Shown here one piece after another: positions 21,879-55,968 of a stretch of DNA of 64,000 bases. Position 1 is the stretch's first letter. Every line of letters starts with the position of its first letter. Origin of the DNA: Parietichytrium sp. I65-24A (Eukaryota; Sar; Bigyra; Thraustochytrida; Thraustochytriidae); assembly GCA_012862575.1 (NCBI GenBank), contig BLSF01000016.1, positions 186,001 through 250,000 on the forward strand. Reading direction: 5' to 3'. Position numbers and translations under genes: made by a program. The notes under the pieces were generated by a model that was given only the letters and a program-made list of their open reading frames with translations, made no database searches and was not told where the DNA came from.

Positions 21879-21960
21879 CGACACGGAGGAGATTCGAACT
21901 CCTGCGGGGAAACCCCAGAAGATTTCGAATCTTCCGCCTTAACCACTCGGCCACCGTGCC
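21879..21960 (-). tRNA. tRNA-Ser(CGA)
   Basis: 82 nt, including discriminator G. Acceptor GGCACGG pairs with CCGTGTC (one G-U). The anticodon arm is GAAGA-TTCGAAA-TCTTC (anticodon CGA, bases 925-927 of this kilobase), with a long variable arm GGGGTTTCCCC typical of serine tRNA and T loop TTCGAAT. No intron, and normal 5'-to-3' order. Confidence 0.95.
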
Positions 21961-22019
21961 TATGTCCGCTTAATCCAACCTTACAATGAAAAAGTATATA
22001 TAATTTGGCAACACGTTTT

Positions 22020-22215
22020 GGCTGAAAATTTGCTTTTCAAATTTTTATAACTTTTCTATAGAGAGACGGTTCTACGAGCCCTTCAAACAAATTTTCAACT
22101 CAAACAAGCACAAGTGGCGCAGCCGACATGTGCAAGGCCGTAGGCAAATTGTGGATGTCAGTGAAAACATCCATCTCGCGGGTATAACCATCAACGCGAG
22201 TAGCCCACATGGAGC
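22020..22215 (-). mobile_element. Transposase relic, copy B (possibly piggyBac-like)
   Basis: On the minus strand this segment reads CKGSMWATRVDGYTREMDVF and on to a stop. It is about 80% identical to 33490-33700 on the plus strand. The GYTREMDVFTD stretch resembles the GY...DFEVYTG segment of piggyBac-type DDE transposases, but the match is short and this is a weak guess. It is a fragment only. It lies between two tRNA-Ser genes, as does the other copy. Confidence 0.4.
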
Positions 22216-22392
22216 CTTTGCACCGTAATGCAGGCTGTGAGAAAACCATAGAAAACCAAGCCAAAGAGTGATACGGTTGATACTATTGATACGATACAAA
22301 ATCGAAATAATTAATTCGACAGACCACGTGCGACAGACAACCAAATAATTGACTGTGAAAAGGAAGCAGAATCAAAAAAAGAATTCACAGCT

Positions 22393-22474
22393 CGACACGG
22401 AGGAGATTCGAACTCCTGCGGGGAAACCCCAGAAGATTTCTAATCTTCCGCCTTAACCACTCGGCCACCGTGCC
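22393..22474 (-). tRNA. tRNA-Ser(AGA)
   Basis: 82 nt with the same backbone as the neighbouring tRNA-Ser(CGA), but the anticodon loop is TTAGAAA, giving anticodon AGA (read as IGA for UCU/UCC). Minus-strand T7 terminator directly downstream (A-run at 22374-22380 on the plus strand). Confidence 0.95.
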
Positions 22475-22721
22475 TAGGAAACTTTAGCAACCGCTTAATG
22501 TCTAGTCGTCGCCTGGCACTTTTTGAAGCGCCCGTAATAGTGACTAGATTTCGGTTCGCCTAATCACTAGCATGGATAGTCTTCATCTTGCGCTAGCCGC
22601 TCTCTAGGTTCGCCCCGAGCTTCGCAGCAGAATCTCGTGCAGACCTTTCCAAGTGATGCGATACGTCAATTCAGTTGACGCGGACATGACGGCGGGACCA
22701 CACTCGATCTTGAGCCGCACT

Positions 22722-22768
22722 CCACCTTCCGATAGGGTTTGTTTACGCTGCACTTCGTGGCTTCACTT
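22722..22768 (-). repeat. Dispersed repeat, copy B
   Basis: On the minus strand this is the same pair of blocks as 9176-9234, but with a 2-base instead of a 14-base spacer. It lies about 95 bases upstream of the TATA box of the candidate structured RNA and might be an upstream promoter element of that gene. Confidence 0.7.
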
Positions 22769-22860
22769 AAATTAAATTGAGCCGATGATGTAATTTTTTA
22801 GGAACCAAGCGATCATCCCGGTTGTGGAAGCATGACTCCTCTGCGCGCGGTTTCAAGAGT

Positions 22861-22868
22861 TATAAAAA
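22861..22868 (+). promoter_or_regulatory. TATA box
   Basis: TATAAAAA at 22861-22868, about 25-30 bases before the probable 5' end of a T-run-terminated, hairpin-rich region. Fits an external (type 3) Pol III promoter, as in U6, RNase P or MRP RNA genes. Inference from spacing only. Confidence 0.45.
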
Positions 22869-22889
22869 GGTTGAGCTCTTGTCAACGGT

Positions 22890-23242
22890 CTCCAACAAAT
22901 CATACTCTTCAATTCACAAGCTCAAGATTGAAGACAGTTTGTAGATTGATTGTTTTCTGTTCAACAAGCCAAAGTGCGCCCGCCTTCGGCGGTCTTCTTC
23001 GTGCTTGAGAGTTGCGCCTGCCTCCAGCAGGCTTACTCGTTGCGTTCACAGTTCGGCAGTCGTACTCAATCGCCTAACGGGAGGATCGGATAAAACTGCC
23101 TTACGGCAGCTCTATTCCTCTCCGTAGAATGCGACGTGCAAAGCAGTAGATCGAAACGTGCATTCGCTACGCAGCTGCCGCTGCCTTTTCGCCGTTCAGT
23201 TCCCACTTGCTGGGGGATTAGCAAATCTGGTCCGATTTTTTT
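22890..23242 (+). ncRNA. Candidate structured Pol III RNA, family unknown
   Basis: About 350 bases with no useful open frame, preceded by a TATA box and ended by T7 at 23236-23242. Stable local hairpins: CCGCC-TTC-GGCGG (22980-22992), GCCTGC-CTCCA-GCAGGC (23016-23032), CTGCC-TTAC-GGCAG (23096-23109), and a longer stem joining GAATGC and GCATTC (about 23127-23165). The 5' CGGTCT (near 22886) may pair with TGGTCCG before the T-run. I tested it by eye for U1-U6, SRP, RNase P/MRP and U3 motifs and found no clear match. The size would suit RNase P, MRP or telomerase RNA. Confidence 0.4.
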
Positions 23243-23327
23243 AGATGTAGAAAAAAAAATTCAGTGAATCAAAAGAATCAAAAGAAAAAGAGGTGAAGCA
23301 AATTTACAAAATAAAAAATAAGACATT

Positions 23328-23409
23328 CGACACGGAGGAGATTCGAACTCCTGCGGGGAAACCCCAGAAGATTTCTAATCTTCCGCCTTAACCACTCGGC
23401 CACCGTGCC
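23328..23409 (-). tRNA. tRNA-Ser(AGA)
   Basis: 82 nt, same structure as at 22393-22474, anticodon loop TTAGAAA. It is the left copy of the gene that is cut by the N at 23962, as its downstream flank (CAACTTTGCTTAACC) matches that copy's flank. Confidence 0.95.
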
Positions 23410-23521
23410 ACAACTTTGCTTAACCACTTGGTTGATCGATGTTCCTCACAAGAATCTATAGACTAAAGCTGGTTTCCCTAGAGAAAATTTCTATTCGAAA
23501 CTAAAAGCCAAAAAGAATGAA

Positions 23522-23603
23522 CGACACGAAGGAGATTCGAACTCCTGCGGGGAAACCCCAGAAGATTTCGAATCTTCCGCCTTAACCACTCGGCCATCGT
23601 GCC
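23522..23603 (-). tRNA. tRNA-Ser(CGA), acceptor-stem variant
   Basis: 82 nt, anticodon CGA. The last acceptor pair is changed on both sides (GGCACGA with TCGTGTC instead of GGCACGG with CCGTGTC), a compensatory change that keeps the stem and argues the gene is functional. Confidence 0.95.
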
Positions 23604-23834
23604 AAACCTACCCGGTTGACGCCATGGAGGGATTAGTTGAATATAAACCTTGTGTTACAATGAAATCACTTTGTAGTCAGGGAGTATAAGAGAGTTTTTT
23701 TACCTTGGTCCGCCGAAATTACAAACTTGGATTCTTTGCTCTGATCGAGGTTCGTGCTCAGCGAAAGCCCGATTTCTAATTGCTCGCGAAGGACTCCACA
23801 CCAAAACTATGAATTGACTTGAATTGTTTTAGAT

Positions 23835-23961
23835 CTAGTTGCTAATTCCGTTCACATGATTTATTCCGCGAGACCAGTCGAGATTCCAGCAAAACACATT
23901 AATAGCATACTTGACACCACGAACAGGAGGACACCCGCCGTGCATGGACAGGCGGTCCACC
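23835..23961 (-). pseudogene. Truncated C-terminal copy of the prolyl-4-hydroxylase-like gene, cut by N
   Basis: The last 42 codons and stop of the gene at 24458-26140, with one synonymous change seen (GGG for GGA before the Cys codon of HGGCPP). The frame is intact up to N at 23962. It is better seen as the same gene on another haplotype than as a decayed copy. Confidence 0.75.
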
Positions 23962-23962
23962 N

Positions 23963-24022
23963 CCTGCGGGGAAACCCCAGAAGATTTCTAATCTTCCGCC
24001 TTAACCACTCGGCCACCGTGCC
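23963..24022 (-). tRNA. tRNA-Ser(AGA), 3' part missing at N
   Basis: The 5' 60 nt of tRNA-Ser(AGA), from acceptor 5' strand through the variable arm. The T arm and 3' acceptor strand are absent because the sequence breaks at N. Probably the same gene as 23328-23409 on the other haplotype. Confidence 0.85.
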
Positions 24023-24134
24023 ACAACCTTGCTTAACCACTTGGTTGAGTGAGAATCCTCACAAGAATCTATACCCTAAAGCTGGTTTCTCTAAAGAAAA
24101 TTTCTATTCGAAACTAAAAGCCAAAAAGAATGAA

Positions 24135-24216
24135 CGACACGAAGGAGATTCGAACTCCTGCGGGGAAACCCCAGAAGATTTCGAATCTTCCGCCTTAACC
24201 ACTCGGCCATCGTGCC
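24135..24216 (-). tRNA. tRNA-Ser(CGA), acceptor-stem variant
   Basis: Identical in sequence and acceptor variant (GGCACGA/TCGTGTC) to 23522-23603. Anticodon CGA. It lies 240 bases from the stop codon of the hydroxylase gene. Confidence 0.95.
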
Positions 24217-24457
24217 AAACCTACCCGGTTGACGCCATGCAGGGATTAGTTGAATATAAACCTTGTGTTACAATGAAATTACTTTGTAGTGAGAGAGTAT
24301 AGGAGAGTGTGTGGACATGTGTGGACCTTGGTCCGCCGAAATTACAAACTTGGATTCTTTGCTCTGATCGAGGTTCGTGCTCAGCGAAAGCCCGATTTCT
24401 AATTGCTCGCGAAGGACTCCACACCAAAACTATAAATTGACTTGAATTGTTTTAGAT

Positions 24458-26140
24458 CTAGTTGCTAATTCCGTTCACATGATTTATTCCGCGAGACCAG
24501 TCGAGATTCCAGCAAAACACATTAATAGCATACTTGACACCACGAACAGGAGGACATCCGCCGTGCATGGACAGGCGGTCCACCTTAGAGCCGTCGGCTG
24601 TGGTGTGATAAAAAATTGCAGCTGCTCTTGGGACTGGAGGCACGAAAACACCTCTTGAGCACTCCGACATGCCATTACGGGATATGTGCGACGAATCGCC
24701 AAATAGGCTCGCCCCACGAGCATAGGGGAAAACAGTTTCTCCACCCTCGTCAACCTTTGTCAAGTAAGGGAGCATGGTAACATGCCTATTTCTTTCCATA
24801 TCCACGTCTTCAGGTACCATTGGGTACTTGTCCTGGACTTGATCAAGTGCCTCGGCGGCAGCAATAACACATTCGTCAATGTCTGATCCACTCTTCGCAC
24901 AGAATGCTCCTTTCAGCCACTCAGTATGGACGTCTACGACATCCAAGGCGTTAAAAAACATAGCCTTATTCTGGAAACCCAGTCTTTGTGCCATGGAGAA
25001 GATGAACGCTCCGTTGCGAAGATCTGGGAACACAGTTGAGTTTGGGTGAGTGAATATTTTAGCTGCTTGCTGTTGGAACTTGGATGCCCCAGCCTTGGCG
25101 GCTCTCGCGTCTTGAAATGTTTTCCAGAGAAGGAAGCGCTGCTGTGCTGCCCATTGACTCAATAGCACTGGAATTTTGAACCAAAGAAACTCCTCGTCCT
25201 TTACAGACATGGTCCTGACATTGTGAAAAACATCATAGTGCTCTTTGTACCATTTTCCAGGCGTGTATCTCAGAAGTTGAAGCGGTTCCAGAAACTCCAG
25301 GTTTTCGAGGCGGAGAACTTGTTGTGCTAGCCTCCGTAAGTGTTTGGGGCTTGGTTCATTGTCGTCAAGGTTTGCTGTTTCACTGGTTCGGTAATTTGCG
25401 AACCTGTCATCTTTATCGTAGTGCTTCTCCGGCGAGCGGAAAAGGGTCTTTGACCCTGTCGCGATAATGCTTTCGACATCGGTCTCGGAAACCACATCCC
25501 TCGCCAACAACACTTTTGGGGAAAGCGAAACGGTTGTGAGCTCCACTCCGCTCACGTTGAAAGTGAAGCCGATTTCTACGCCGGGCCACTGCCAAGCTTG
25601 CCGGTCAAGCAAGATAAACACGATAAAATCAGAGCGGACAATGTCCTCCCATGTCGATACGGGGCGGCCAGTATTTGAATACAGCCGTTTTGGCTCAAAA
25701 CTGTCGGCACGCGGTGTCGGTCTAAGCGCCTCCAAGGCAGCTTCTGCGAGACTTGCCAGGCACCCTTCCTTTGTATCCTTAGAGGGAAGCTCAAGAAGGA
25801 CACCTTCGTTTTTCCCGTTCAGCGCCACAAACACCCTCTCTGGTGTGTTTGATGCAGCCACGTCAGCTTCGTGTGCAACAAATTGACTCGAGAGCTCTGC
25901 TAAGGCGGAAGTAACGCTGACAATCCTTCCCTGGTCCACGAGAACTACTGCCGAACAGTCTTGGACCGGTAAAGTGTCCTGAGCAAAGACGGGGTCCAGG
26001 TTGGTCCACTTGCCATCATCCCATGGAGACCACCACGCACACTCCTGGGAGGCCGCAGCGGAAACTACAGCCGTCCTCGAGCAGAAGAGGAGCGCTGCGG
26101 TGACTTGGGCAACCCGGCCAGCGAGGCCCGAAACACGCAT
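24458..26140 (-). CDS. Prolyl 4-hydroxylase-like 2-oxoglutarate/Fe(II) oxygenase, secretory
   Basis: 560 residues, ATG at 26140. An N-terminal signal peptide (hydrophobic, to about residue 28) sends it to the ER or outside. Iron ligands: His301 and Asp303 in KEHYDVFHN, and distal His526 in LSMHGGCPP, with Lys536 (GVKYAINVF) placed to bind 2-oxoglutarate. VDEGGETVFPYA and AAIFYH are typical core strands of the P4H alpha-subunit family, which hydroxylates proline in secreted proteins. The 220-residue gap between HxD and the distal His is far longer than the usual 50-70 and holds an insert of helical sequence. Divergent from the NSRP1-like gene with 604 bases between starts. Confidence 0.85.
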   Translation of the reverse strand: MRVSGLAGRVAQVTAALLFCSRTAVVSAAASQECAWWSPWDDGKWTNLDPVFAQDTLPVQDCSAVVLVDQGRIVSVTSALAELSSQFVAHEADVAASNTPERVFVALNGKNEGVLLELPSKDTKEGCLASLAEAALEALRPTPRADSFEPKRLYSNTGRPVSTWEDIVRSDFIVFILLDRQAWQWPGVEIGFTFNVSGVELTTVSLSPKVLLARDVVSETDVESIIATGSKTLFRSPEKHYDKDDRFANYRTSETANLDDNEPSPKHLRRLAQQVLRLENLEFLEPLQLLRYTPGKWYKEHYDVFHNVRTMSVKDEEFLWFKIPVLLSQWAAQQRFLLWKTFQDARAAKAGASKFQQQAAKIFTHPNSTVFPDLRNGAFIFSMAQRLGFQNKAMFFNALDVVDVHTEWLKGAFCAKSGSDIDECVIAAAEALDQVQDKYPMVPEDVDMERNRHVTMLPYLTKVDEGGETVFPYARGASLFGDSSHISRNGMSECSRGVFVPPVPRAAAIFYHTTADGSKVDRLSMHGGCPPVRGVKYAINVFCWNLDWSRGINHVNGISN

Positions 26141-33066: not shown

Positions 33067-33148
33067 GGCACGGTGGCCGAGTGGTTAAGGCGGAAGATTA
33101 GAAATCTTCTGGGGTTTCCCCGCAGGAGTTCGAATCTCCTCCGTGTCG
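33067..33148 (+). tRNA. tRNA-Ser(AGA)
   Basis: 82 nt, same sequence as the minus-strand genes near 22-24 kb, anticodon AGA, discriminator G. Normal order, no intron. Confidence 0.95.
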
Positions 33149-33366
33149 TTCGACGATGTTTTTGTTAGTCGTCCAATTTTTCTTTTTCGGCACTTGGTTG
33201 ACACAAGCATAGGGAAGAATTGTGGCGCACTCTTATTACAAACCATTCCCAAATGCAATATTCTTTTTTGCGTTGCCGTCAATGCGTCCTTGCCATCGTT
33301 GCTGAGCACAATACCACAACTTAACCGGTACTTTTAAACGCCTGGTCCCCATGCTCTCTTGGTTCC

Positions 33367-33730
33367 ATGGTGAGGTATCTCCATGGAGGTTTTGGCCCTG
33401 AAGCTGAACGCTTCTTTGGCTTCGTCAAAGATGAACTCATACATCGTGGTCGTGTAAATCCTGCCTTAGAAACGGTTGCATGCGTTCACATCAAGGCTTC
33501 CATTGACGGCCATCAAAGGCGCCAAAAAGATTGCACTGCGGTGCAAAGGTTCCATGTGGGCCACTCCTGCTGATGGTTACACCCGTGAGATGGATGTTTT
33601 CACTGACGTCCACACTTTGCCTGCGGGCTTTTGCACATGTCGGCTGCGCCACTTGTGCTTGTTTAAGGGCTCGTAGATCCGTCTCTTTATAGATTAATTT
33701 TTAAGCAAATTTTCTCAAGTCAGAACTCAA
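33367..33730 (+). mobile_element. Transposase relic, copy A (possibly piggyBac-like)
   Basis: Frames here give FGFVKDELIHRGRVNPALE and, overlapping in another frame, KGAKKIALRCKGSMWAT then DGYTREMDVFTDV. The set resembles the DE...KGR and K...GY...VYTG blocks of piggyBac-type DDE transposases, but the match is by eye and weak. The frame changes between blocks, so the element is dead. The 3' 200 bases match 22020-22215. It lies between two tRNA-Ser(AGA) genes. Confidence 0.4.
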
Positions 33731-33817
33731 AAACAGCATGTAGGAGCTTCACTGGCATTGATTTCTTTCTAATCAACATATACAGCCGAGACCTCTAGGC
33801 AATCACCAAGTGGTGTA

Positions 33818-33899
33818 GGCACGGTGGCCGAGTGGTTAAGGCGGAAGATTAGAAATCTTCTGGGGTTTCCCCGCAGGAGTTCGAATCTCCTCCGTGTCG
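33818..33899 (+). tRNA. tRNA-Ser(AGA)
   Basis: 82 nt, identical in sequence to 33067-33148. A T-rich run (TTTCTTTTTTTG at about 33907-33918) follows as terminator. Confidence 0.95.
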
Positions 33900-37355: not shown

Positions 37356-37363
37356 AAAAAAAA
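37356..37363 (-). terminator. Pol III T8 terminator, permuted tRNA copy 1
   Basis: Eight T on the minus strand, 12 bases past the 5' half. Confidence 0.85.
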
Positions 37364-37374
37364 CTGGTTTCACT

Positions 37375-37456
37375 TGACAGGCGGGGATACTTACCACTAT
37401 ACTATCGCGGATTAGAAGCTATTCCACGACCGGGAATTGAACCCGGGTCTCCCGCG
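37375..37456 (-). tRNA. Permuted tRNA-Asp(GTC), copy 1
   Basis: On the minus strand: 3' half (positions 38-72, bases 37456-37423), 11-base linker ATAGCTTCTAA, then 5' half (positions 1-37, bases 37411-37375). Rejoined at 37/38 it is a complete tRNA-Asp: acceptor TCCGCGA with TCGTGGA (one G-U), D arm GTAT/GTAT, anticodon arm CCCGC-CTGTCAC-GCGGG, T arm CCGGG-TTCAATT-CCCGG. Leader and trailer pair: trailer GTG with leader CGC next to the junction and, after a small internal loop, ACCAGTT with AACTGGT. Ends in T8. Confidence 0.9.
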
Positions 37457-37751
37457 CGCTTTGCGGCGTACCAGTTGGGGTTTCAGTCAGATATGGCTAC
37501 ATATCTTCTTTCGATTTCGAAAGTTTTTGATTTTGAATATTTTGAGAAAAACGCATTGAATGTTGAAAAATTATCCTTTCCCACCTTTCCCCCGAAGTCG
37601 CTCGGTGTAAAAATGTGAAAGGAAAAGCGTGTCGGCAGCTTGTTGAGCCACCCACTATAGCAGGGGTCACAGCTGCTCTCAGTCGTTCGCCTTCACTGGA
37701 ACTGTTGCAGAGCTGAGAAATGACTGCGAAATGACATTGCGACGCAATCGC

Positions 37752-37760
37752 AAAAAAAAA
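37752..37760 (-). terminator. Pol III T9 terminator, permuted tRNA copy 2
   Basis: Nine T on the minus strand, about 20 bases past the 5' half. Confidence 0.85.
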
Positions 37761-37781
37761 CAAGTCGGTCTCACCTTTGTT

Positions 37782-37863
37782 TGACAGGCGGGGATACTTA
37801 CCACTATACTATCGCGGAGAAGAACTTATTCCACGACCGGGAATTGAACCCGGGTCTCCCGCG
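37782..37863 (-). tRNA. Permuted tRNA-Asp(GTC), copy 2
   Basis: 3' half 37863-37830, linker ATAAGTTCTTC, 5' half 37818-37782; both halves are identical to copy 1. The leader-trailer helix is the clearest of the five: trailer ACAAAG pairs with leader CTTTGT (6 bp). It is set off from the anticodon stem by two 3-base bulges and a 4-base central helix, of which 3 positions pair or wobble, as in a bulge-helix-bulge. Confidence 0.92.
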
Positions 37864-37953
37864 CTCAATACAAAGTTCAGAAACCACTTGATGCCCACAT
37901 TAGACGAGACAACCCTTCTCAATCTCTGCTCTTCACAGGAAGAGATTTGGACG

Positions 37954-37961
37954 AAAAAAAA
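37954..37961 (-). terminator. Pol III T8 terminator, permuted tRNA copy 3
   Basis: Eight T on the minus strand, about 18 bases past the 5' half. Confidence 0.85.
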
Positions 37962-37979
37962 GGTGGCGTACGCGCTGCT

Positions 37980-38062
37980 TGACAGGCGGGGATACTTACC
38001 ACTATACTATCGCGGACATTTAGAACATTCCACGACCGGGAATTGAACCCGGGTCTCCCGCG
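37980..38062 (-). tRNA. Permuted tRNA-Asp(GTC), copy 3
   Basis: 3' half 38062-38029, 12-base linker ATGTTCTAAATG, 5' half 38016-37980. The central 4-bp helix pairs fully (C-G, T-G, G-T, T-A). The outer helix is trailer GCAG with leader TTGC, extended further out by CCAC with GTGG. Confidence 0.9.
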
Positions 38063-38275
38063 TTCCATGCAATTGCACGTACCACTTGATAGTTGGCATC
38101 TGAAAACGTTCCAAATGCTTTCTTTGCCGTGAATCTAACACCAAGAATGATACCAATTCGTGGCTGTGGCGACACGGACTAACGTGTGCAAAAAGCTACC
38201 AATGAAGACTAAAGAAGAAATAAAAAGGAGAAAAAATAAAAAACAAATAGAAGTAAAAGGAAAAGGAATTTATTT

Positions 38276-38281
38276 AAAAAA
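38276..38281 (-). terminator. Pol III T6 terminator, permuted tRNA copy 4
   Basis: Six T on the minus strand, 12 bases past the 5' half. Confidence 0.8.
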
Positions 38282-38293
38282 CAGAGGTGCGCT

Positions 38294-38375
38294 TGACAGG
38301 CGGGGATACTTACCACTATACTATCGCGGATTAGAAGCTATTCCACGACCGGGAATTGAACCCGGGTCTCCCGCG
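38294..38375 (-). tRNA. Permuted tRNA-Asp(GTC), copy 4
   Basis: 3' half 38375-38342, linker ATAGCTTCTAA (as copy 1), 5' half 38330-38294. Outer helix: trailer GCG with leader CGC, then CTCTGT with ACAGAG (6 bp). Confidence 0.9.
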
Positions 38376-38457
38376 CTCTTTGCGACATACCACTCTGTTG
38401 GAGATTGCTGAGTTGCATGCCATAATGAGTGATTAGAGGGCGGCGTAGGAGAAAGAG

Positions 38458-38464
38458 AAAAAAA
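38458..38464 (-). terminator. Pol III T7 terminator, permuted tRNA copy 5
   Basis: Seven T on the minus strand, 12 bases past the 5' half. Confidence 0.85.
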
Positions 38465-38476
38465 GATAGCTGCGCT

Positions 38477-38558
38477 TGACAGGCGGGGATACTTACCACT
38501 ATACTATCGCGGATTAGATACTATTCCACGACCGGGAATTGAACCCGGGTCTCCCGCG
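38477..38558 (-). tRNA. Permuted tRNA-Asp(GTC), copy 5
   Basis: 3' half 38558-38525, linker ATAGTATCTAA, 5' half 38513-38477. Outer helix: trailer GCGC with leader GCGC, then ATCT with AGAT. The central helix is weak here (one pair and one wobble). It is first in transcription order, so no 5' half lies upstream that could serve it in a linear gene. Confidence 0.88.
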
Positions 38559-39158
38559 ATCATCGCGCTTTACCATCTGGTTTCTCCCTTTGCTCAATAC
38601 CCTTGATATTGTTTTTGTCCCGATATCCCGATATTTTACCAGAGTGATGTGGGACCTGGACATGTGACACCAACAAACCACCAACAAAACACATCGTCCT
38701 TTCCTGCGACAAGATTTGCGAGGGATGTGGGCAGCCAGGACATACTTTCCTCCGCGGTCCGGTCAGTTTACAGCGAAATTGATATACAAGGGTCTCCCCG
38801 GAGCAACACCAGGTAATCAGCAAATCTGTGGCACTACTGATAAGGTTCGGGAAGCTGGAACATGCAAGTTAAAGTTCTGCGAAATGAAAGCGCTTGGTGA
38901 AGTGACCTAGGCAATTTCTTTACCATTCTGCTCGCTGCGCCTCTTAGTCTCTCAGAGGAGCACATTTTGAACTGCGCACATTATCAGAGCAACAATTACT
39001 TGCTGGATAGCGGTTCAAACGTGGGTTGGATTGAAACTTGTTAAAAGGAAAGAGTCTTAAAACTCTCGGATTCAAACAGCTTTACTATCATTACATTTTA
39101 TGTACAATCGCTCGATCGATCTGTTATTAACAATACAAAACATAGGGACCTGCTGTGC
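38559..39158. other. Intergenic between the tRNA array and the next gene
   Basis: 600 bases. It should contain the start region of permuted tRNA copy 5 (leader with GATGGTA at 38571-38577 read in reverse) and the 3' flank of the C5orf34-like gene. No open frame of note. Confidence 0.4.
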
Positions 39159-44566: not shown

Positions 44567-45355
44567 TGCTCTCGGACGTTTTGGCGCGGGGGCAGCAACT
44601 GCAGCAACCCTCAAACCCAGGTCCCACTCTTGCCGGTAACTGAACTCACAGACTATACATCAAGTTGATTTTTACACCACCCCATCCTTTGCAATCTCCT
44701 TCTCCCCCTCCTCGTGCGAGGCCAAAACATGACGACCAAAACACGACGACACACTTTCCTCGAGTCAAAGCAAAGCTACTTCCTCCAATATCTTCCTTCT
44801 CGGGTCATAGTTTGCGGCGCAACATCTTGCCGTGACGCTCGGCGCTCCAAGATCCATCCCCTGTGCCTTGTGTCCCTTGTTCTGTGCCCTGTGTCCAGAC
44901 CCAAGTGAGCCACTCCCGAGCCGCAAAGATCACTTGGTTGCCAGTAAGCGCTGACTCGCTGCCAAGACCTGCAAAATCTGCGATGTAATGTCATCTCTTG
45001 TGACGAGAACATTTTGAGATTGACGGAGAGTTCTGACAGTGAGATACTGTGAGTACACCACGTAGTTCTCACTTGTAAATTGCATGTGATGTGCTACTGC
45101 GCCACTACGCTTCTCTTAGCCTCCAGCGTAGGCGCTGAACAGATTTGAAATTTGAAAAGGCGGCCGCATGAGAAGCATGAGAAGCATGAGAAGCATAATC
45201 AGTGTGAGAGAGGACCTCGAGACGCAGGCAGTGGGAAGAGAACAGAGCACTGGAAGACGGAAGAGCAGTCCGTTTCGCGCAGTGTGTCGCAAGGCCATAG
45301 AAGGAAGGGCAGGACGGAGGGTCTTAGCAGCGTGTTGTGGCGTTCGGCCAGGCGG
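44567..45355. other. Intergenic and probable 5' UTR of the next gene
   Basis: 790 bases. A CTGTGTCCCTTGT/CCTGTGTCC repeat (44865-44895), the motif CTGACAGTGAGATACTGTGAGTAC (45034-45057, split by a few bases) and GAGAAGCAT repeats (45169-45195). The downstream frame is open from a TTG at 45152, but the first ATG is at 45356. Confidence 0.4.
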
Positions 45356-46612
45356 ATGGCGGGACACAAGAAGATCGTCGCTCCGCGCGGGGTGCTGCAG
45401 CTCAATGATCAGCAAAAGTGCAATGTAACAACGTTCGCACTGGTTGATAAAGAGATTCGGGCGATGGTGAAGAATGGCGCCTTTGTTTCGCAAGTGATCA
45501 GCCAAGCGGACCTGGAATCGTTCGTGCAGCCCGCAAGCTTGGACATTCCGATTGGAAACAGGTGCGTCCTTCTCCGTGACAAGGTCCTCCCGCTGCGCAA
45601 AAAGGTCGAGGCAGTCTTGAAAGAAGAAGACCTCATTCTTGAAGAACGCAAACTGGATATGGACGAGTCCATTACCCTCTTGAAAGGGCAGACTTATCTG
45701 TTTCCCTGTGGCCGAGTAAAATTACGATCCAACCAGTACGGCTCCCTTTCGCCAAAATCAAGCATCGGCCGGGTTGACCTCATGGTGCGAGGCGTCTTCG
45801 ATGAGTGCGGCTTGTACGACGTTGTCAACGGCGAAGGAGACCTCTGGATGGAAGTCAGCCCTCGGAGTTTCAACATCAGAGTGAAACCTGGCCAGCCATT
45901 ATCTCAGCTCATGATCTTCGAGAACAGGGATGTGGAGACTCCTTCTCCAAACCCGTTGGCAAGTGGGCATGGGAATTTCCAGCTTTCATATGACCATGCA
46001 GCTCAACACTTACCCCTACACGTCCACCGCGGCGCACTCGTGCTGAGCTTGAATCTTACACCTGGTGAGCCAGTGTACATACAGCAGGGAGAGAAACTTG
46101 CAGAGCATCACCTCGTTGGATACGAAGCACTGGCGACGAGCGCGATTGTGGACCTTAACAAAGTGCACGAGCATGACGCAAATCAGTATTTCCGCCCTCT
46201 GTACAAAAGCACGTCAAGGTCGAGTCTGACCTTGGAGAAGGACAGGTTCTACATCCTCTCAACTAAAGAGAGAGTGAGCATTCCACTGGAGCTTTCTGCT
46301 GAAATGGTCCCGTTTTCACAGCACGTTGGCGAATTACGCGCGCACTACGCCGGGTTTTTCGACCCGGGATTTGGATATGGGAAAGCCGGTGAGGTGAAAG
46401 GAACCATCGGAGTGTTGGAAGTGCGACCTCACGAAACCATAACAGTGTACGACGGTCAGCCAATTTGCTTGATGGAGTTTTTCAACAACTCCTCAATACC
46501 AGAGCGGCCATACGGTCACGCTGGCAACAATTACCAGACTCAAACCGGTCCTCAGCTTGCCAAATATTTTCGTCGTGGCCTCGAAGAAGAAAAAGGTGCG
46601 TCGAGGTCATAA
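45356..46612 (+). CDS. Two-domain dCTP deaminase, bacterial type
   Basis: 418 residues from the first ATG at 45356. It deaminates dCTP to dUTP, feeding dTTP synthesis. N-terminal domain: FVQPASLDIPIG, YGSLSPKSSIGRVDLMVRG and LWMEVSPRSFNIRVKPGQPLSQL. C-terminal domain: FYILSTKERVSIP, VGELRAHYAGFFDPGFGYG, and the closing NNYQTQTGPQLAKYFRRG. The doubled architecture and length match the dCTP deaminases of alphaproteobacteria. Most eukaryotes use dCMP deaminase instead, so transfer from bacteria is likely. GC and codon use are like the neighbours, so the transfer would be old. The Glu/Ser/Arg residues of the active site look kept. Confidence 0.9.
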   Translation: MAGHKKIVAPRGVLQLNDQQKCNVTTFALVDKEIRAMVKNGAFVSQVISQADLESFVQPASLDIPIGNRCVLLRDKVLPLRKKVEAVLKEEDLILEERKLDMDESITLLKGQTYLFPCGRVKLRSNQYGSLSPKSSIGRVDLMVRGVFDECGLYDVVNGEGDLWMEVSPRSFNIRVKPGQPLSQLMIFENRDVETPSPNPLASGHGNFQLSYDHAAQHLPLHVHRGALVLSLNLTPGEPVYIQQGEKLAEHHLVGYEALATSAIVDLNKVHEHDANQYFRPLYKSTSRSSLTLEKDRFYILSTKERVSIPLELSAEMVPFSQHVGELRAHYAGFFDPGFGYGKAGEVKGTIGVLEVRPHETITVYDGQPICLMEFFNNSSIPERPYGHAGNNYQTQTGPQLAKYFRRGLEEEKGASRS

Positions 46613-51307: not shown

Positions 51308-53470
51308 TTACAAGGTGCGAGATTGCTTTCGCCCGCTCGGTCTGAGGGCGTCCTTCTTCCAATTGAGCTCTGCGCGCACTTGCTCCTTGTCAAGGCCAAA
51401 CGCTTCGAGATGGTATCGCAGGGCCAGCGCCCCTTTCCTGGTGGTGCTCGTTGACACGAGCTGCTCCACATCGACGTTAGGCAGGCCGATGAGATTCACG
51501 ATGTTTGACACAACATCCGTGGTGTTTTGCGCAAAGTCTTCAAACTCTACATGGGCGTCATAGGCTCCGAATTCACTCACCTCCCGCATCGCGATGTCAA
51601 GTCCTGCGCTGAACAATTGAACAATGGACTTGCCAAATGCGCGGAGGTCGAAGACATTGTGATTGCCACCCATGCCATATGCCACGATGGTCGCGAACGA
51701 CTCCAAAATCGGAACCATGTCGCGCGATGTCATGATGACCTTGGCATCTGGGAAAACCTTACGCAGCGCACCAATATTCACCATGTGCTGAGGGGACTTC
51801 ATTACTCTGACTGAGTCTGCTTCAATTTTTTCTCCCCTTTGAGCATCCATGATCTGATAAACTGCTTTGACGTACTCATATGCTGGGGTGTGGTCTGTTT
51901 CAAGATACCACTTTGTGTACTTTTTGCCAGAGTACCCAAAAACGAATTGCCAAGAGGACATCACATGGGCAGTGAGAAACAGTTCCTCAAATGGGACATC
52001 GTATGTCAGAGGGAACATGGTGGATAGAAGGGGTCGAATCCAGTGCTGGAAACCTGCGCCGAACTTTGCTGGCATCGCCCGAGGGTCTTTTTCCACTGGT
52101 AAGGTGGGTGTGACTGGAGAAACCGGCTCGAGAGTTTCGAAAAAACGAATACACCTTGTTTTTGGATGCGCGCAGAGCATCTGGTGCAAAGCTGTTGATC
52201 CGGTGCGAGGCATCCCTGCAAGGATGGCGATTTGGCCAAGGTCGCGTGTCAAAAGAGACGGGTCCGAGCGAAGAGCGTCGATGACTTTGAGCTGCGCGCA
52301 AAGACCAGAGATGATCTGTTGCCTAAAGACAATGCGTCCAAGCAAGGTTCGCTGTCCGGCAACCTCGGGATGATTGTTGTCCTCGAGAAGGAGGCGGAGT
52401 CCGTCCCGCCAATATGCCCCATACGAGGTGTTGAAGATGGCAGGGTCGTCTCCGAAAAACACGCGCAGTCCAGTTCGAGCTTGTGCTGTTTCGAGAAAGT
52501 CATCAAACTCGAACGGCACAAGCCATTGCTTGAGTGGCTCTCCGACAAAGTTGATCGCTTCCAGGATGAGTGGGAGTCGCGGGTGCTCCATTGTTTCATC
52601 CATCTGAACCTTCCCGCCGATCACGCGCTCTACCCGCCGTGGCGCAAACATGCATGCCCCCAGAGCCACCGCAATGGCAAGGACTCTGCGTTTGCAAGTC
52701 TTGGACGAAGTCGATTCATGGCCGTTGTGAACACCTTGCTCCCATTCGGGGGCGTCCTCACTTGCTGTTGATGATGGTCTGCGCCGAAATCCTTTCTCTC
52801 TGTATGTCCCGAAAAGCCTATCCCAGATCGTTGTCAAGCCTCCGTAGTTGAAGCTGTTCGGGCCACCGAAGCGATGATGCACAGCATGTTCCCCTGGGTT
52901 GGTGAATGGAGATATGTTGACCTTGGAATGCTTGGAATGGATGTGATTCCCCATCACCACGAGCAAGGCCACGTAGGCGATGATGGACTCAACTGGCAAG
53001 TTTGGCACCACGAGAAAAGGGACCATCACCATTCCAAATACGACAGTAACGAGTGCATCGATGATGCCGACAGCGTTTGTGGCTAAGGTAAACTGCGGTG
53101 TAAAAGAGTGGTGCTCTGCATGAAACCTGTAGAGTGCTGGGCAGTGGAAGAGGCGATGTAGAAAGTAGTAGGTTCCATCTCCAATCATAAGAAGAAATGC
53201 CAACTTGACGATAATTTCGATGGCATCTCCGCTTGGCCTCTCCAAACTTTTCTCGATCAGAGGAATCATGAACTCACGTGTAAAAATTGCGGTTGGGACA
53301 GACGTCTTGAAGGCTGTCAGAATGGAAAGTCGCAGGGCCCTCTTGGATCTGTTGGTGAAAGGCTCAGCTTTCCAGTAGCCAAGAGCCAGGGGGTACACCA
53401 CAGTCACAAGGATGTTACCAGCCAGGACGGCTGCTATCAAGCTTGGGCAGGGCAAAGACAAGTCGAACAT
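51308..53470 (-). CDS. Sterol desaturase/fatty acid hydroxylase fused to a sulfotransferase
   Basis: 720 residues from the first ATG at 53470; the longer frame opens at GTG. Residues about 1-225 are a membrane-bound di-iron hydroxylase of the ERG3 type, with His boxes HRLFH (105-109), HAEHH (117-121), HIHSKH (176-181) and HAVHH (195-199). Residues about 410-690 are a PAPS-dependent sulfotransferase: 5'-phosphosulfate loop AGMPRTGSTALHQ (418-430) and 3'-phosphate site TSRD ... S (581-591). A linker of about 190 residues includes a hydrophobic stretch (VLAIAVALGACMF). The fusion suggests one protein that oxidises a sterol or lipid and then sulfates it at the ER membrane. Substrate unknown. Confidence 0.88.
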   Translation of the reverse strand: MFDLSLPCPSLIAAVLAGNILVTVVYPLALGYWKAEPFTNRSKRALRLSILTAFKTSVPTAIFTREFMIPLIEKSLERPSGDAIEIIVKLAFLLMIGDGTYYFLHRLFHCPALYRFHAEHHSFTPQFTLATNAVGIIDALVTVVFGMVMVPFLVVPNLPVESIIAYVALLVVMGNHIHSKHSKVNISPFTNPGEHAVHHRFGGPNSFNYGGLTTIWDRLFGTYREKGFRRRPSSTASEDAPEWEQGVHNGHESTSSKTCKRRVLAIAVALGACMFAPRRVERVIGGKVQMDETMEHPRLPLILEAINFVGEPLKQWLVPFEFDDFLETAQARTGLRVFFGDDPAIFNTSYGAYWRDGLRLLLEDNNHPEVAGQRTLLGRIVFRQQIISGLCAQLKVIDALRSDPSLLTRDLGQIAILAGMPRTGSTALHQMLCAHPKTRCIRFFETLEPVSPVTPTLPVEKDPRAMPAKFGAGFQHWIRPLLSTMFPLTYDVPFEELFLTAHVMSSWQFVFGYSGKKYTKWYLETDHTPAYEYVKAVYQIMDAQRGEKIEADSVRVMKSPQHMVNIGALRKVFPDAKVIMTSRDMVPILESFATIVAYGMGGNHNVFDLRAFGKSIVQLFSAGLDIAMREVSEFGAYDAHVEFEDFAQNTTDVVSNIVNLIGLPNVDVEQLVSTSTTRKGALALRYHLEAFGLDKEQVRAELNWKKDALRPSGRKQSRTL

Positions 53471-55968
53471 TGTGGGATGTGGATGTCCGAGGAGTTTTTT
53501 TTTTTTTTTGGGGGGGGGGGGTTGCTTTTCGTCGTTTGGTTTGTGTTTGCTTCTTCTCGTTGAATCTTCAGCTGTGTTTGGGGTCTGCCGCCTCCGCAGT
53601 CTCAACACATCTGGTCACGACGCGCTTTGCTGCCTGTGTCTCGGGCATCAAGGTTTCTTGGTTTCCTCTCGCGAAACGCTCTTACAATCAACTTTCAGAG
53701 GGGGTTTCATGCAGAACTGAAGACGTGCTCTCGGCCACCGGGGCTACTTTCTTCTTGGTGCGCGGGCATTTCAGTCGTGGCGCTCTGAACTCTTGATTTA
53801 TTGATCAAACATGCGATTGAACATACCCTCTTTCTCGCTCATACGCATTGAGTCTTTCTTCAACATTTGCATTGTTGCACTCTCGGTTCGTGAGCTTGGA
53901 GGGAAGCTCAGGAAGTGGCGAATTGAGAGCCATGATGGGTGGATCTCGATTTGCTATCTTAGTTGTACACTGGTTTCAGTGTTTGCGTTGGAGCATGCAG
54001 TAAAGCTTTTCGAAAATCGTGGTTTCCCGAACATCCTCAGGCGAAATCTTTTGCGACCCAGGCAAGATGGCAGTAGATCCATATATTGTGCTGAGCTGCA
54101 AGAACTTACGAATGTGCTCCGGGCAAGTGTTGGGGAAAGATTTTTCGCGTTCTGAACACTTTCTTGCACGCTTCTATGCATGGCATGTCGAGAATTCTCA
54201 TTGCAGCCTGTGCCAAAAACACTGTTAATTCAGGTTCGATATTATTTTTGAATTTTGTCAAAGCTGCACTTGTTGAGATGGAATGAAGTACTTCTCTCGT
54301 TTGGCACTCTTTAAACTCTCGTGTTTCAGATTGTTTCTAAGCTCAGATTATGCCATCTGCTGAGTGAAATTGGATCGTGCTCCGAACACACAGTCTCATC
54401 CACATTTCAAGAGATTCGACTGTTCGTTTCGTCTAATCTTTGTACGAATGCATGTGATTCGAAGTCAGTTGGATCTATCAAGTTGCGGGACGCTTCACGA
54501 CATAAGAAGATTGACGGTGTCCACCTGGCTACTAGTAGTTGTAGCTAGTAATGAGCCCTTCAACACGGCAGGATGCAGATTGAGCCTGACGATTCACGGC
54601 AAAATGTAGTTTTTGCTCTGAATATTTTCACACGCACCTAAAGTTCTTCCACTCGTAAAAACTTCACAGTCTAGTGCTGCGATTCACACCGATTCAGTTC
54701 GTTCGCCTATCTCTCACAAAGTGTAGCGGGAGTTGAGGTCTTTGAAAATCGTCCGTGCCTCTGAGCTGTCACTCGGAGGTGCAGGAGGGAGCCGAAGCTG
54801 ATTTTACAAAGTAAATGGCCCAAGGCTATCAGAGTTCGTTCGCTCTAGAGTACACAAGTACTCAATAAGATAAGGCGGCGTGTCATCAGCTGCGCTCCTC
54901 ATGGGGCCACTTAATGTGGAGAAGTGTGCTACCCATGCTGTTTTTTTCACAACAAAGCGACGCTCAAAGAGCTAGGAAGCAATAGAGTGCCTCCTCCAAT
55001 TTGGAATTTGGATGTCTGCCACGTCTAGGTGCCACATCGAGTGTTAGGGCTTCGAGTTTACACCGGACAATCTATAAATCTCGAATGCCCACACTTGTCT
55101 AGACTCGTCACATCTGATCATCGAGACGAACAAGATCACCATGATCATCATGATCATCATGATGATGATCACGCAGTTTTCACCGGATCTAACAGTAAGT
55201 CGAGGCGCATAAGAGTGTCTTAGTGTTGGTGCATGCACTGTGCACGGGCCAGAAGCATTCCCAGCCATCAAGCGTTGGGGTTGGTTGAAACTTGAAGGCG
55301 ATTCCAGCGACACTTAAGTTATGAACCGCGAACTCTTCACAGCTGAAAGTGGACACGCAAAGTTGTTGAACTCTGTTTTATTTCTATGTCCGAACTTCCT
55401 TTCTTTGAAGGTCAGTTGCCTGTACAGCCAAGCCATTAGCTAATTACTAGACAGTGAAGACATTTCCCCAAAGGCTGAGATTCCATTTCCTTCTGTTCAG
55501 TGAGGTTAGGCTAAGCCTTTTGAACAAGACCACCGATTGCGAAGCGGTTCCCAGCAAAGTGTCGCTTCTGCCGGCACTAGTACCGGTACCCTCAAGATCA
55601 TGCTGCCCGTAGTTCCTGAACGTGATAATTCGGCAAATTTTATTCAGTGCACACGCTCTTATGGAACCGTACTCATGCACAGCTCCTGACATACTATTAA
55701 GCTCGCTATGGTAGTCGTACTGTTACTCTTGAAGATGTTTCACGGCGCTGAATCTGCCAATTTCCACTTTCCCATTTCCACTTTCTCTTCTTTCTTCTTT
55801 CGATTTCTATTTTGAGGCGATAGACTTTCGTTCACTTTGCGGCCCATTTGGCTTTGCCATTCTCGTCCGTGGAATCGAAAGCAAGAAAGGAACCCAGTAG
55901 ACACTCAACTTTCATCCTGCTCCGCGCACACATCCCACCGTATTCGAAAAACGTTCTTTCAAGTCAAA
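53471..55968. other. Long intergenic region, divergent promoters
   Basis: 2.5 kb between the divergent fusion gene and ABCG gene. It starts with T15 then G12 (53495-53521), 25 bases before the fusion gene's ATG and probably in its 5' UTR. ATGATCATC palindromic repeats at 55139-55170. A 114-codon frame (53811-54155) lacks any recognisable feature and is not called. ACTAGTACCGGTACC at 55577-55591 is a GTAC-rich palindrome. Confidence 0.45.

Follow-up and report, generated by a model that had tools for sequence, protein, structure and literature searches.

The DNA analysed, a window of 64 kb, contains five successive tRNA-Asp(GTC) units on the minus strand (37356–38578), in each of which the two halves of the tRNA are encoded in swapped order. 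We read the array as five tandem, separately transcribed, circularly permuted nuclear tRNA-Asp(GTC) genes of type II, i.e. with the junction between positions 37 and 38. This is an inference from sequence, made without RNA data and held with a probability of about 0.9, and the maturation of the transcripts is likewise inferred. The mechanism is that already known for type II permuted tRNA genes. The five-copy array of one anticodon, the Asp isotype and the A at position 73 are provisionally regarded as new.

Organization of the array

The features of the array are itemized in Table 1. The units are numbered in the order of transcription, such that unit 1 is the first transcribed and has the highest coordinates; they are paralogues, and should not be counted as five independent events. 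All five begin with the 3′ half (C38–A72, 34 nt), and continue through a linker into the 5′ half (positions 1–37, 37 nt), a trailer and a T run. In an exact search five copies of each half alternate along the minus strand, bearing out the order of halves claimed in a first-pass annotation of this DNA, and neither half has another exact copy on either strand of the 64-kb window. The visible tRNA-Asp supply to which that annotation refers is the supply within this window alone. The two halves together (71 nt) are 100% identical in all five units, while sequences 31–60 nt away from the halves are 17–43% identical (means 0.26 and 0.28), which is near chance. When the halves of unit 1 are joined in the order 5′ then 3′ they give a complete tRNA-Asp(gtc) cloverleaf in ARAGORN.

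The linkers are 11 or 12 nt long, as had been claimed, and contain no terminator, the longest T run within them being of two. Each of the 5′ halves is followed by a T run of the T6–T9 length assigned to the terminators in the first-pass annotation, starting 11–21 nt past A37. A run of at least six T starts within 25 nt of just 0.9% of minus-strand positions.

A pattern for Asp comprising the T-arm and acceptor, a gap of 4–34 nt, and the acceptor and D-arm matched five times in the window and not at all in 100 dinucleotide shuffles. A general scan of both strands for permuted acceptor stems gave seven matches, i.e. the five units plus two produced by adjacent tRNA-Ser genes of the ordinary kind, which are separated by 113 nt; the same scan of 20 shuffled windows (one strand each) gave none. 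A chance match as the origin of the array is rejected, because shuffled sequence generates no matches in either scan.

Table 1. Positions of the elements of the five tRNA-Asp(GTC) units within the window
Unit	Element	Positions	Strand	Basis	Motif
1	Leader strand of leader/trailer arm	38565..38578	-	fold and duplex	
1	3′ half, C38–A72	38525..38558	-	exact match	
1	Linker, 11 nt; first base A is discriminator N73	38514..38524	-	sequence	
1	5′ half, positions 1–37	38477..38513	-	exact match	
1	Trailer (12 nt) and T7 terminator	38458..38476	-	T-run scan	
2	Leader strand of arm	38382..38399	-	fold and duplex	
2	3′ half	38342..38375	-	exact match	
2	Linker, 11 nt	38331..38341	-	sequence	
2	5′ half	38294..38330	-	exact match	
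2	Trailer (12 nt) and T6	38276..38293	-	T-run scan	
3	Leader strand of arm	38069..38085	-	fold and duplex	CAAGTGGT at 38081–38088
3	3′ half	38029..38062	-	exact match	
3	Linker, 12 nt	38017..38028	-	sequence	
3	5′ half	37980..38016	-	exact match	
3	Trailer (18 nt) and T8	37954..37979	-	T-run scan	
4	Leader strand of arm, 18 leader–trailer pairs	37870..37890	-	fold and duplex	CAAGTGGT at 37883–37890
4	3′ half	37830..37863	-	exact match	
4	Linker, 11 nt	37819..37829	-	sequence	
4	5′ half	37782..37818	-	exact match	
4	Trailer (21 nt) and T9	37752..37781	-	T-run scan	
5	Leader strand of arm	37463..37476	-	fold and duplex	
5	3′ half	37423..37456	-	exact match	
5	Linker, 11 nt	37412..37422	-	sequence	
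5	5′ half	37375..37411	-	exact match	
5	Trailer (11 nt) and T8	37356..37374	-	T-run scan	

Pairing of leader and trailer

In the minimum-energy folds of the units the leader is paired with the trailer as an arm of 10–18 bp, with 11, 13, 14, 18 and 10 pairs in units 1–5 respectively. These folds may be taken as unconstrained, as the energies with and without a cloverleaf constraint are equal. The duplex energies of the leaders with their own trailers sum to −75.0 kcal/mol, ranking top among all 120 possible assignments of leaders to trailers. Dinucleotide shuffles matched the strength of the cognate duplex at frequencies of 5, 61, 26, 3 and 19 per 1000 for units 1–5, and random 34-mers taken from the window did so at 27, 118, 66, 3 and 24 per 2000. 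The duplex of unit 2 is thus weak in comparison with its shuffles. Fisher combination of the shuffle values gives p = 5e-6 on the assumption of independence between the units, which holds only in part because they are paralogues. Considered individually, leaders 2 and 5 bind the G+C-rich trailer 3 more strongly than their own trailers, and trailer 2 pairs more strongly with leader 1 than with its own leader. The same test applied to six distinct ordinary tRNA-Ser genes of the window revealed no cognate pairing, with 461 of 720 permutations as good.

A single bulge-helix-bulge (BHB) register, cutting after A37 and before C38, is possible in all five units. Its h′ helix, formed between trailer bases 2–4 and leader bases −7 to −9, is paired in 15 of 15 cells, whereas alternative registers reach no more than 8 of 15. 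Two of the three pairs exhibit two-sided change, a count equalled in 66 of 500 column shuffles. The trailer and leader triplets listed in the first-pass annotation for the five units are correct, and all fit this one register. The triplets alone do not select the cognate partner, as non-cognate combinations are paired in 50 of 60 cells and 6 of 120 permutations are as good. In the central helix C32 can pair with G(−3) and U35 with the base at −6 in every unit; the former occupies the place of the anticodon–intron pair of eukaryotic tRNA introns. The helix is counted as relaxed because G34 and U33 are often unpaired (able to pair in two and three units respectively). Overall 15 of its 20 cells are paired, and as another register also achieves 15 of 20 the central helix is not diagnostic alone.

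The outer arm is retained in all five minimum-energy folds. In units 1, 3 and 4 the anticodon bases are predicted to pair with the leader differently from the BHB register, and in unit 5 h′ is moved by three, such that the triplet pairs with −10 to −12. The triplet pairing proposed earlier is therefore possible in a common register, but in the minimum-energy fold of unit 5 the triplet pairs elsewhere. Similarly, the BHB described as near-ideal in copy 2 of the first-pass annotation (our unit 4) can form, but with three of four central pairs the description is generous, and in the minimum-energy fold the anticodon bases are paired otherwise. As judged from predicted pairing, the evidence is carried by the whole leader/trailer arm, and not by the BHB triplets or the central helix.

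Detection by tRNA-finding programs

ARAGORN in default mode and Rfam detected none of the five tRNA-Asp units, finding only seven tRNA-Ser genes in the window. When chunks of sequence were joined to themselves, ARAGORN called units 1, 2, 4 and 5 as tRNA-Asp(gtc) with the break after position 37. Unit 3 was called as tRNA-Ser(gga), and there were single Glu, Gln and Gly calls; all of these are taken to be by-products of the joining of chunks. Permuted genes may be commoner than has been thought, because programs that search for linear genes miss them or call some of them as intron-containing.

Genomic setting

The sequence of the window is eukaryotic and nuclear. It contains protein matches to adenosylmethionine decarboxylase, a C5orf34-like protein, an NSRP1-like protein and the complex I subunit NDUFV1/NuoF, together with an adenylate-kinase protein whose similarity to FAP206 lies below the Pfam cut-off. 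No confirmed relative of the NDUFV1 protein was found in a collection of viral contigs. A single open frame at 51308–53614 encodes both fatty-acid-hydroxylase and sulfotransferase domains, and a two-domain dCTP deaminase of bacterial type is located at 45149–46612 within this eukaryotic contig.

The seven ordinary tRNA-Ser genes (AGA and CGA) lie in two groups, at 21879–24216 and 33067–33899. Their region includes duplicated blocks (23343–23642 with 23956–24255, and 23702–23961 with 24325–24584). The only N in the window, at 23962, falls inside a truncated extra copy of tRNA-Ser, at the boundary of a duplicated block, and looks like an assembly join.

Alternative readings of the array

The same sequence could be parsed as four ordinary tandem tRNA-Asp genes with anticodon-loop introns of 101, 231, 116 and 325 nt, leaving one 3′ half and one 5′ half as orphans at the ends. 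ARAGORN, run with introns allowed on the untouched sequence, in fact returns two intron-containing tRNA-Asp genes (101 and 116 nt), and therefore this reading had to be met; moreover, eukaryotic tRNA introns usually sit at 37/38, according to the available part of PMC3978253. An ordinary intron-containing gene should have a terminator-free intron within one transcript, but there is a T6–T9 run near the start of each of the four would-be introns. The trailer of one unit pairs with the leader of the next with energies of only −9.2, −9.7, −8.2 and −10.0, about as strong as shuffled sequence (means −5.3 to −12.0), whereas the cognate set ranks first among the 120 assignments. The would-be orphans, namely the 3′ half of unit 1 and the 5′ half of unit 5, are 100% intact amid flanks of near-chance identity, and adjacent genes would be separated by a mere 11–12 nt with no terminator between them. 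The linear reading is rejected on the T runs, the cognate leader/trailer pairing, the intact outer halves and the short terminator-free linker, and we consider it very unlikely. The preference of the first-pass annotation for permuted genes over linear introns is supported by the pairing, the T runs and the outer halves, and by the common 37/38 register.

The units might instead be dead relics, or an intermediate of duplication and loss, with working tRNA-Asp genes elsewhere. A73 in place of G73 and the absence of a TATA element could mean that function has been lost. Against this, the 71 nt are the same in all five units despite flanks at near-chance identity, the leader/trailer pairing has been maintained despite changes of sequence, and every unit has its T run; loss of function is thus thought highly improbable. 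That the array is an artefact of assembly is scarcely credible. The N in the duplicated tRNA-Ser block indicates that the assembly is imperfect at that place, but the array and its vicinity are without any N, and no simple misjoin could create all five units because the spacers, leaders and trailers all differ.

Putative maturation pathway

The permuted reading leads to a pathway of which one part rests on the sequence, namely the order and identity of the halves, the T runs, the cognate pairing of leader and trailer and the shared splice register. The start of transcription, the cutting, the circle, the removal of the linker and the charging are inferred from the pathway known in algae. Transcription of each unit would start just upstream of the 3′ half and end at the T run past the 5′ half. 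The leader and trailer of the transcript would pair as an arm beside the anticodon stem, where the BHB can form, and the tRNA splicing endonuclease would cut at the 3′ side of A37 and at the 5′ side of C38. Ligation of the cut ends would generate a circle, from which RNase P and tRNase Z would excise the linker at the acceptor end. Maturation probably proceeds through such a circle, for which there is no RNA evidence.

Promoter signals and leader motifs

Permutation reverses the order of the A and B boxes, whose role is believed to be taken over in Cyanidioschyzon merolae by a TATA-like element; this element lies no more than ∼50 nt upstream in most of the C. merolae genes, whereas green algae have no more than ambiguous AT-rich regions (PMC3978253, available part). 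A TATA element at −65 to −25 is present in none of the five Asp units, compared with four of six distinct tRNA-Ser genes (background 4.7%). An upstream TATA promoter for the Asp units is disfavoured by this test, and with no TATA in any unit the promoter is therefore unproven. Five of eight matches resembling sigma-70 promoters overlie the 5′ halves of the five units on the plus strand, and were discounted as the complement of the identical tRNA sequence.

The leaders carry a motif close to AGTGGTA, which equals the right half of the A box of the same tRNA. It matches in 7, 7, 6, 6 and 5 of the seven letters in units 2, 3, 4, 5 and 1 respectively, at distances of 28, 33, 34, 28 and 28 nt upstream of the B box; the distance in the ordinary order is 33 nt. 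Four of the five Asp leaders match in at least six letters, the probability for a random 34-mer being 0.033 each, and two of the six distinct tRNA-Ser leaders also do so. That the leader motif restores the order of A and B boxes is an attractive inference from these matches, and has not been shown. The motif could alternatively reflect common descent of the leaders, or be a general upstream tRNA element.

There are six exact copies of CAAGTGGT in the window, of which two belong to Asp leaders and three precede tRNA-Ser copies, one of the latter being truncated. It is found exactly in only two of the five Asp leaders and two of the six distinct tRNA-Ser leaders. The copies starting at 23423, 24036, 33807, 37883 and 38081 each immediately precede a tRNA gene or unit of the same strand, and the element is common to ordinary tRNA-Ser and permuted tRNA-Asp.

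Discriminator base and identity elements

All five units have A as the discriminator N73 (38524, 38341, 38028, 37829 and 37422, minus strand), while G73 is a near-universal identity base for aspartate. The units do have the other eukaryotic Asp determinants, G10.U25, G34, U35 and C36, and also C38. In a functional tRNA-Asp A73 would not be expected, and it is unexplained; the synthetase may be adapted, charging may be weak, or the tRNA may be used otherwise.

Relation to known permuted tRNA genes

Permuted tRNA genes with the 37/38 junction are described for C. merolae, Ostreococcus, Micromonas and the Bigelowiella nucleomorph in the part of PMC3978253 that was available, with intervening sequences of 1–74 nt. 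The array resembles these genes in having the 3′ half first, a short intervening sequence, the 37/38 junction, a downstream T stretch and BHB-type pairing of the ends (PMC3978253, same part). Set against the features of type II, all five units have the 3′ half upstream on the same strand, a terminator-free intervening sequence of permitted length at the acceptor end, and an RNA polymerase III T stretch after the 5′ half. The junction with its BHB is met by the possible register (15/15 cells in h′ and 15/20 in the relaxed central helix), with the reservation that the minimum-energy folds differ. The exons form a normal eukaryotic cloverleaf in which A73 is atypical. The upstream TATA-like element is the feature not met, and is not defining outside C. 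merolae.

The array also differs from the known genes. The 34 genes tabulated in PMC3978253 include no tRNA-Asp, and the table has at most two permuted genes per anticodon per genome, the two-gene cases being Gly(CCC) in C. merolae and Ser(CGA) in O. tauri, where one is marked atypical. The available part of that paper describes no tandem array of permuted genes, and the TATA-like element that it reports in most C. merolae genes is absent here. It does describe tandem intron-containing genes for a single tRNA species in Ostreococcus lucimarinus and Chlamydomonas, which are proposed as an intermediate toward permuted genes; these are like our array in being tandem, but are in the ordinary order, whereas we read the present units as permuted, with intact outer halves. 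The same permuted order is found in Auxenochlorella, where the genes were noticed after tRNAscan-SE had given an incomplete set (PMC12636532, available part), and in the Amorphochlora nucleomorph, although there in two tRNA-Ser genes (PMC4494063, available part). Permuted tRNA genes are further reviewed in PMC4033280, also available only in part.

The accessible portions of PMC8450103, PMC4090602, PMC13353863, PMC4247016, PMC4156623 and PMC8975779 contain no permuted tRNA-Asp. A search of the open-licence literature by title and start of abstract, with subscription papers and supplements outside its scope, revealed no permuted tRNA-Asp, A73 or tandem permuted array. The permuted-Asp pattern has no match in the collections of viral contigs and genome contigs, and the pattern for the Asp 5′ half has none in the viral contigs.

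Implications

The five copies suggest that a permuted gene can multiply as a unit. With identical halves and diverged leaders and trailers, they constitute a natural covariation experiment on the needs of the splicing endonuclease and of RNA polymerase III, and the array makes an obligatory circular supply of a tRNA a testable question. A more extensive proposal is that the whole of the cytosolic tRNA-Asp comes from the permuted array, with the A-box-like element of the leader restoring the order of promoter boxes and the aspartyl-tRNA synthetase adapted to A73. This is speculative and on balance doubtful, and the sequence analysed covers only the 64-kb window. If it were true, each aspartate codon would be read by a tRNA that had gone through a circle.
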